32,599 nucleotides of DNA from Giesbergeria sp. (GTDB lineage Bacteria > Pseudomonadota > Gammaproteobacteria > Burkholderiales > Burkholderiaceae_C), in the NCBI GenBank assembly GCA_030690515.1, contig JAUYGP010000403.1, positions 1 through 32,599 of the forward strand, in the 5' to 3' direction. The first letter of the stretch is position 1, and every line of letters starts with the position of its first letter. The notes under the pieces were generated by a model. The model made no database searches. It worked only from the letters and a program-made list of their open reading frames with translations, and was not told the origin of the DNA. Positions 1,524 to 7,282 of the stretch are shown here, piece by piece. Both the position numbers and the translations under genes were made by a program.

Positions 1524-2222
1524 ATGCGCCTGCTTCTGGTTGAGGATGACATCATGGTCGCCAGCGGAATCAAGCTGGGGCTGTCGGATGCCGGGTATGC
1601 GGTGGACTGGGTGGGCAGCGGTGAGCGGGCCGAGGAGGTTCTGCAGCGCGAGACCTTTGATGTCGCCGTGGTCGATATCGGCCTGCCGGGTATCGACGGG
1701 CTTGAACTCACACGCCGTCTGCGGCGCCCCGACATGGCCAGTCGCGACATGCCGGTGCTGATCCTGACGGCGCGCGACGCGCTGCAGGACCGCGTGCAGG
1801 GGTTGGACCTGGGCGCGGACGACTATATGGTCAAGCCGTTCGAGCTGCCCGAGCTGCTGGCCCGGTTGCGGGCGCTGCTGCGGCGCTCGCAGGCGGCCAC
1901 CACGGCCGTGTTGGGCTTTGGGCCGCTAGAGCTGGACACCGCCAACCGACAGGTAGGCATCCGCGCTGCAGCGGACGCTGCCCTGGTGCCCATCGACCTG
2001 GGACCGCGCGAATGGACGGTGCTCGAATACCTGATGATTCACGCACCCAAGCCCGCCAGCAAAGACAAGCTGCTGCAGGCCCTGACCGGATGGGACAAGG
2101 AGATCACCCCCAACGCGGTCGAGGTGTACGTCTCGCGCCTGCGCGGCAAGCTCGAACCCCATGGCGTGGGCCTGCGTTCCATCCGGGGGTTTGGCTACCG
2201 GCTGGAACTGCTGGGCTCCTGA
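1524..2222 (+). CDS. OmpR/QseB-family response regulator
   Basis: MRLLLVEDDIMVASGI receiver start, VVDIGLPGIDGLEL phosphoacceptor Asp region, KPFELPELLARL, C-terminal winged helix (VEVYVSRLRGKL, IRGFGYRL). Confidence 0.95.
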   Translation: MRLLLVEDDIMVASGIKLGLSDAGYAVDWVGSGERAEEVLQRETFDVAVVDIGLPGIDGLELTRRLRRPDMASRDMPVLILTARDALQDRVQGLDLGADDYMVKPFELPELLARLRALLRRSQAATTAVLGFGPLELDTANRQVGIRAAADAALVPIDLGPREWTVLEYLMIHAPKPASKDKLLQALTGWDKEITPNAVEVYVSRLRGKLEPHGVGLRSIRGFGYRLELLGS

Positions 2223-2286
2223 GCCGCGCGGCTGCGCAGGACGACATGGCCCGCACGCGCGCACGGCTGGTGGAAACGGACAGGGC

Positions 2287-3765
2287 ATGAGCCTGTTGCG
2301 CCCCCGCCTGCGGGCGATGACCTCGGACCTGCGTAACCGGCTGCTGTTGCTGCTGGTGCTGCCCCTGTGCGTGCTGGCGCTGCTGGGTGCCTGGATGGAT
2401 TACCGTTCCGCCGACGAGGCCGCCTCGCGCCACGACCAGCGCCTGCTGCGCCTGCTGCCGGCGCTGGCCGACTCGGTGCTGGCGCGCGGGGCCGACGAGG
2501 GGGACGTCCCGGTCTGGCTGCTGGCCCCGCCCGTAGAGGACTTCTTGCGCCACAGCAACTACACCAGCTACAGCGTGCGCGATCTCTCGGGTCGTCTGCT
2601 GCTGGGCGATGAATGGGTGCACGGCGCGGTGCCGGCCACGCTGGAGCCGGAGTTCCACAGCGTGGAGTTCAGCGGCGTCACCTACCGGGTGGCTGTGCAG
2701 CGGGGGCGCACGGGGGCGGGCGAGTTGGTGGTCGCCCTGGCCGATGGCACCGACCCGCGCCAGCAATGGGCGCAGCACCTGCTGCTGCGGGTGCTGCTGC
2801 CCAACCTGGTACTGGTGGCAGCGGCGGCGCTGGCCATCCATTGGGCGGTGCGCCGGGCGTTTAAGCCGCTGGTCGATCTTGCAGCTGCTGTGGAGCGGCG
2901 CTCGCCGCGCGACCTGAGCGCCATCGACGAGGCGGCGTCACCGTCCGAGGTGCGCCCGCTGGTGCACTCGCTCAACCGCCTGTTCACCATGGTGAATGCG
3001 CAGGCCGAGAGTCAACGCCGCTTCGTGGCCGATGCCGCGCACCAGTTGCGCACCCCGCTGGCAGGCCTGCAGGCCCAGGTTGAAGCCTGGGCCATGCTGG
3101 CGCGCTCCGGAGTGAAAACAGTGGATGGAGCGGCAGGTTCAAGGTCAAATAGGCCTCCAGGGCAATACGGGCAAGCGGTATCAGCTATTACATTAGGAGC
3201 ATCAGAGATTGAGAAGCTGCGCGATGCCACCCGCCGCACCTCGCAACTGGCGCACCAGTTGCTGGCGCTCTCGCGGGCTGATGCACGTAGCCTTGATGGC
3301 CAGACCATGCAGCGGGTGGATTTGCAGGATCTGTGCGAGACCATGCTGGAGATGTTTCTTGACGCGGCCACCGGCAAAGGCATCGACCTGGGGCTGGAGG
3401 CCCAACCTGCCCATGTGATGGGGCATGGCTGGCTGCTGCGCGAACTGCTGTCAAACCTGGTGGACAACGCCATCAAGTACACGCCGACCGGGGGCAGTGT
3501 CACCATTCGTTGTGGCACGCAGCCGGGGCCGCAGGGAAGCGTGTGCGCCACCTTGCAGGTAGAAGACGACGGCGCTGGCGTGTCGCCTGCCGAGCGCGCA
3601 CGGGTACTGGAGCGTTTTTACCGGGTGCCGGGCACCGTGGGCGAAGGTACCGGCCTGGGTCTGCCCATTGCCGATGAGATCGCCCGCGCCCACGGGGCCC
3701 TGCTCACGCTGGCAGATGGCGGCAATGGCCGCGGCTTGTGGGTGGTGCTGGTGTTCCCCGCCTGA
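2287..3765 (+). CDS. Two-component sensor histidine kinase (QseC-like) with a repeat-derived in-frame insertion in the DHp region
   Basis: H-box RRFVADAAHQLRTPLAGLQAQVEAWA, N-box LLSNLVDNAIKYTPTGG, G-boxes GAGVSPAERARVLERFYRV and GTGLGLPIADEIARAHGA; ATG 2287 (MSLLRPRLRAMTSDLRNRL) preferred. Confidence 0.94.
   Translation: MSLLRPRLRAMTSDLRNRLLLLLVLPLCVLALLGAWMDYRSADEAASRHDQRLLRLLPALADSVLARGADEGDVPVWLLAPPVEDFLRHSNYTSYSVRDLSGRLLLGDEWVHGAVPATLEPEFHSVEFSGVTYRVAVQRGRTGAGELVVALADGTDPRQQWAQHLLLRVLLPNLVLVAAAALAIHWAVRRAFKPLVDLAAAVERRSPRDLSAIDEAASPSEVRPLVHSLNRLFTMVNAQAESQRRFVADAAHQLRTPLAGLQAQVEAWAMLARSGVKTVDGAAGSRSNRPPGQYGQAVSAITLGASEIEKLRDATRRTSQLAHQLLALSRADARSLDGQTMQRVDLQDLCETMLEMFLDAATGKGIDLGLEAQPAHVMGHGWLLRELLSNLVDNAIKYTPTGGSVTIRCGTQPGPQGSVCATLQVEDDGAGVSPAERARVLERFYRVPGTVGEGTGLGLPIADEIARAHGALLTLADGGNGRGLWVVLVFPA
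3135..3204 (+). repeat. Copy A of dispersed repeat (degenerate), inside the histidine kinase CDS
   Basis: aggtcaaataggcctccagggcaatacgggcaagcggtatcagctatta matches copies C and D (GGTCAAAATGGCCTCTAGCGC...GCGC..GCAGCTATTA); locally AT-rich compared with flanks. Confidence 0.65.
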
Positions 3766-7115: not shown

Positions 7116-7217
7116 CTGTTCCCTGAAACGGCGACACTGATGCGCACCGCGCGTACTGGCGCCAAGGTGCTGATGGACACTGATCTGGCTCTGGCCTGAT
7201 CGGTGATTTTTGCGGAT

Positions 7218-7282
7218 TTCAAGCTTTTTTACTCTGGAGTGCCCATGAATAAAGCGCTAGCAGCTATTGTTTTTGCAGTGAT
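7218..7282 (+). repeat. Copy B of dispersed repeat, overlapping the start and signal peptide of the DUF2147 gene
   Basis: ttcaagcttttttactctggagtgcccatgaataaagcgctagcagctattgtttttgcagtgatt; shares CTCTGGxG...AAGCGCTAGCAGCTATT with copies C, D and E. Confidence 0.6.

Follow-up and report, generated by a model that had tools for sequence, protein, structure and literature searches.

Palindromic elements that lie in frame within protein-coding genes are best known in Rickettsia. The Rickettsia palindromic elements (RPE) are short palindromic repeats found between genes and also in frame within unrelated genes, where they are tolerated, and the same route of protein change was considered conceivable in other prokaryotes in a 2024 review (PMC10969869). 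The window analysed here, a stretch of 32,599 nt from a 3.52-Mb draft genome of Giesbergeria sp., holds copies of a dispersed element that works like RPE, being likewise a short palindromic repeat present both between genes and in frame within them. The likeness is one of behaviour, with lengths and taxa taken from descriptions, and the element is not placed as a member of that group. RPE are about 150 nt long and belong to Rickettsia, whereas the present element is about 70 nt long, belongs to Comamonadaceae, and has a copy in a histidine kinase gene whose register is fixed across several genera (PMC10969869).

Other described families share some of these features. QMITE1 and QMITE2 of Coxiella burnetii are MITEs reported to overlap open reading frames, sometimes in frame in the middle of the ORF, but by description they are unlike the ~70-nt element, with 150-400 bp and ~50 copies per family (PMC5896051). 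The Beta-proteobacterial repeat element (BRE), the only named Comamonadaceae repeat found in the literature, is reported as dispersed in Bordetella, Polaromonas, Delftia, and Acidovorax, with some copies lying wholly in coding sequences (PMC3110155). BRE measures about 90 bp with 69% GC and occurs in up to 29 copies, partly as tandem arrays, whereas the element here is about 70 nt, mostly 30-50% GC, and present in hundreds of copies; the two are set apart by description in length, GC, and arrangement (PMC3110155). Similarly, REP elements of the GTAG/CGTC superfamilies are short, palindromic, and of high copy number, and a REP survey makes no mention of Acidovorax, Delftia, Polaromonas, Rhodoferax, Verminephrobacter, or Variovorax (PMC3733652). 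Mobilisation of the REP/RAYT kind did not fit, as one Y1_Tnp gene is also found in the nearly element-free genomes G302, G378, and G184, and none in G338 with its 111 copies. No Rfam family matched anywhere in the window.

Aligned copies give a consensus of about 70 nt with an inner 9-bp stem, CTAGCGCTT/AAGCGCTAG. The draft genome containing the window has 74 occurrences of the core AAGCGCNNGCAGCTAT and 0 of the reversed control, and a covariance model finds at least 150 copies there. In the sister genome G004, the model finds 101 copies in an 800-kb sample taken evenly (20% of the genome), which is about one per 8 kb or roughly 500 per genome. The matches in the window outside the kinase gene are the following:

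7213-7282 (+), element copy at the beginning of a DUF2147 gene (7245), taking in its start codon and an N-terminus that resembles a signal peptide (MNKALAAIVFAVIAAPTWAQ), 36.8 bits
14738-14807 (+), well-preserved element copy, 52.9 bits
19895-19964 (+), best element copy in the window, followed by a terminator-like hairpin, 67.3 bits
30351-30421 (+), weaker element-like match within a DUF3025 ORF, 30.6 bits

Given the position of the first of these copies, the signal peptide of the DUF2147 gene may have come from the repeat. The DUF3025 ORF is no longer than its family profile.

The kinase gene lies in a stop-free frame of 534 amino acids at 2161-3765 (+), next to the gene of a response regulator. 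Its start is placed at 2287 (MSLLRPRL) or 2317, both inferred.

1524-2222 (+), partner response regulator with Response_reg and Trans_reg_C domain matches
2287-3765 (+), CDS of a TctE-like sensor histidine kinase with 2CSK_N, HAMP, HisKA, and HATPase_c; start inferred
2944-3111 (+), first helix of the DHp hairpin (alpha-1), AlphaFold2 helix 210-265
3040-3042 (+), codon of the phospho-acceptor histidine in AAHQLRTP, H242, invariant among orthologues
3112-3198 (+), DHp turn of 29 residues in the AlphaFold2 model, pLDDT below 50 over residues 267-289
3134-3203 (+), eroded in-frame copy of the ~70-nt dispersed palindrome, 39.3 bits and E 1.8e-7 by covariance model, 30.2 bits by HMM
3199-3300 (+), DHp alpha-2 of the model, from AlphaFold2 and the loop alignment

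The Pfam domains of the frame are 2CSK_N, HAMP, HisKA, and HATPase_c, with 2CSK_N, HisKA, and HATPase_c each above the cut-off. The kinase had originally been called QseC-like; because it carries 2CSK_N (Pfam PF08521), it is TctE-like instead, and it resembles the TctE / 2CSK_N sensor kinases in domain order and in the adjoining response regulator. It differs from them in the DHp turn, which is about 10 residues in those kinases and 29 here.

The original prediction described 3112-3210 as a repeat-derived in-frame insertion in this turn, poorer in GC than its flanks and followed by intact N and G boxes. Most of this holds. The GC fraction of the interval is 0.55 against about 0.70 in the flanks (0.50 for the element copy against 0.68 for the ORF), the frame is open throughout 2161-3765, and the N and G boxes downstream are intact. 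The repeat origin stands for 3134-3203 and fails for the first ~22 nt (3112-3133, GVKTVDG), since the model matches only from 3134 and these nucleotides form a variable non-repeat linker ahead of the element. The covariance model, R1, was trained on 23 other copies with the kinase loop excluded, and an HMM from the same copies scores the loop far above the maximum of 9.0 bits among 5,750 codon-order shuffles of orthologue loops. Read in frame, the element gives (W)PLAL...QALAAI. The copy is worn, matching the sister-genome consensus at 41 of 70 positions, and 3 of the 9 stem pairs are broken in the covariance-model alignment. A low-GC hypervariable loop could come to resemble the repeat by chance or through convergent alanine-rich codons; the loop is indeed variable, and DapF shows that element-like coding sequence can exist as such where nothing was inserted. 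The separation of the loop score from the shuffles, the E value within the window, and scores of up to 43.5 bits (HMM) in the loops of relatives nevertheless make such an origin extremely improbable.

The placement of the insert in the DHp turn agrees with the predicted structure. An AlphaFold2 model of the window kinase, built with 64 orthologues, has helices at 210-265 and 295-328 joined by a turn at 266-294, whereas that of a short-loop orthologue has helices at 208-262 and 273-304 and a turn of 10 residues (263-272); both models are monomeric and of modest overall confidence (pTM 0.40 and 0.46). As both helices are retained without shortening on either side of a turn of 29 rather than 10 residues, the insert is predicted to lengthen the turn by about 19 disordered residues. 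A longer turn had thus been anticipated correctly, but the expected 25-30 additional residues shrink to about 19-20 in comparison with the short-loop orthologues. The 3' end of the element codes for the residues just ahead of alpha-2 together with the very start of that helix (AITLGA). Since the insert splits the hairpin, the HisKA profile matches the window kinase over only positions 2-27 of 66, still above the family cut-off and with both helices in the model, whereas short-loop orthologues match over 1-65 or 2-65.

Comparison with relatives (80 kinase loci kept, and further orthologues from 400 genomes of the family) shows that the insertion is shared. It had been expected to be missing from sister species. 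However, sister orthologues have loops of similar length, and the nearest ones (94%, 89%, and 84% identical) as well as most of those from Acidovorax carry recognisable element DNA. Between the motifs used, the loop measures 43-51 residues, usually 49, in every Simplicispira and nearly every Acidovorax orthologue, most of which show the repeat. Clearly shorter loops of 18-32 residues, with no element score, are found in more distant Comamonadaceae. With a threshold of 3 bits, element-bearing loops are found in Acidovorax, Simplicispira, Giesbergeria, g1, g37, g40, g52, g57, g102, g105, g130, and g142, codes and names that partly overlap; the genus group g1 probably includes Simplicispira psychrophila. 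On orthologues that have the same loop without the repeat, the outcome is mixed. Four Acidovorax loci (L041, L046, L048, and L067) have a 49-residue loop ending in QGAIVLGVDQIEK without recognisable repeat DNA; the best reading is that they descend from the same insertion and have been ameliorated. A recent insertion specific to the Giesbergeria species, as the original prediction implied, would agree with the abundance of the repeat in its genome, but it is refuted by the sister orthologues that carry the element and sits badly with the eroded state of the window copy, so that it can hardly be credited at all. The insertion is instead taken to be ancestral to several Comamonadaceae genera and not specific to the window genome.

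Loop length is not a matter of the element alone. Loops with the element have 40-53 amino acids (median 49), and those without have a median of 37.5 and range from 18 to 131; because length varies even without the element, some of it may predate the insertion. The g43 orthologues L189, L192, and L193 have DHp loops of 68-131 residues that are rich in serine, alanine, and glutamine and unrelated to the repeat.

The position of the element within the loop bears on whether it entered once or several times. The 53 loops with scores of 2 bits or more all place the 3' end of the element 15 nt from the fixed loop end, at one and the same nucleotide as counted from helix 2, and the length of the 5' linker differs among element-bearing loops by whole codons (steps of 3 nt). 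On a tree of 111 kinases built with the loop left out, presence changes at least 12 times at a 9-bit threshold or at least 16 times at a 2-bit threshold. These changes fit a single gain with later erosion and deletion. With a minimum of 12-16 changes, repeated gain at the same codon is also formally compatible with the tree, and if different genera had each acquired the element independently in this tolerant loop, so patchy a presence would be accounted for. Such insertions would also be in line with the g105 orthologues, whose loop scores roughly track the number of core copies in the genome (148 copies and 40.7 bits in G228, 17 and 5.4 in G128, 7 and 5.7 in G365, and 0 and 0 in both G302 and G423). 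That all 53 loops share one 3' register argues against them, however, and Acidovorax loops have GGTGCT in common where dispersed copies have GCAGCT, as expected under vertical descent. Several separate insertions are therefore unlikely, though they keep some weight, and one ancestral in-frame insertion remains the preferred reading.

After a single insertion, the element DNA appears to have drifted under constraint on the protein. Codons ending in A or T make up 60% of the element segment against 17% around it (41 species), and GCT ATT GTT/ACT TTA GGA is kept in many species despite a GC-rich background. This persistence could mean that what preserves the element in the kinase transcript is its hairpin or its rare codons, for example by setting the pace at which the DHp hairpin folds during translation. 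In favour of such a role, all 9 bp of the stem are paired in the g37 orthologue L158 (CTAGCCCAG/CTGGGCTAG), with a sequence that departs from the consensus. Over 51 loops, however, stem pairing averages 5.51 of 9 against 5.38 of 9 with the arms shuffled between sequences (p 0.145), and as this is no better than shuffled, selection on the hairpin at the RNA level is unsupported. Likewise, the Acidovorax soli group has exchanged the codons of the loop for GC-rich ones and kept the peptide end QGAIVLGVDQIEK. A role of the element in the mRNA is thus quite improbable.

The kinase is not the only protein with such a copy. Of the copies sampled from G004, roughly one in five falls inside a long ORF whose third codon positions are GC-rich to either side of the copy. 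The clearest second in-frame case is HsdR, where the element in G004, QNFKPNVPLALDAQAQAATKS, adjoins the DEAH box; near-identical peptides are found in G000 and G012 and similar ones in other genera. The HsdR loci with the element are L302-L304, L317, L321, and L323, and shorter sites without it, in other genera, are L310, L314, L329, and L331. Further candidate in-frame copies in G004 are the following:

L252:17285-17354, MutL
L233:14000-14069, PepN
L247:10968-11037, TrmJ-like
L250:10477-10546, near the LigA N-terminus

Two genes were set aside as insertions. The loop length of TrmJ is too variable to call, and DapF has an element-like stretch yet does not differ in length in genomes where copies are few or absent, so the genome-wide in-frame pattern does not always reflect insertion. 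In-frame copies in unrelated genes together with empty sites in relatives, the behaviour seen in RPE, are found here for the kinase and for HsdR with its shorter sites, with MutL, PepN, and TrmJ as candidates.

Taken together, the kinase loop probably stems from one ancestral in-frame insertion of a ~70-nt RPE-like, MITE-like palindrome into a tolerant DHp loop, kept as a flexible spacer. The event would date back to an ancestor of several Comamonadaceae genera, in which the element entered the codons for the DHp turn of the TctE-like kinase. The insertion was presumably nearly neutral at first, since a four-helix bundle should tolerate a floppy insert of ~20 residues in this surface loop. Drift would have followed under protein-level constraint, strongest where the 3' end of the element enters helix 2 (AI-x-LG), and the insert may now act as a partly domesticated flexible spacer or turn. 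In the kinases studied, the DHp loop is regarded as deciding whether autophosphorylation proceeds in cis or in trans (Ashenberg et al., 2013, as cited in PMC11371814), and the insert may possibly influence this choice. More tentatively, Comamonadaceae might own an RPE-like family, numbering hundreds of copies in each genome, that has repeatedly supplied new peptide segments through its stop-free frames, namely disordered loops such as the DHp turn of TctE and the segment by the DEAH box of HsdR, and perhaps signal-peptide cores such as that of the DUF2147 protein.

The kinase case is directly testable, because nature provides orthologues of three kinds: some carry the element, some lack it, and some have recoded DNA that still specifies the same end of the peptide. 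It would offer an example from free-living bacteria whose position on a tree can be established, and the domain concerned has a loop believed to direct kinase chemistry. If the reading is true, the kinase loop would be an anciently domesticated selfish repeat that has reshaped a signalling hairpin, possibly altering cis or trans autophosphorylation.
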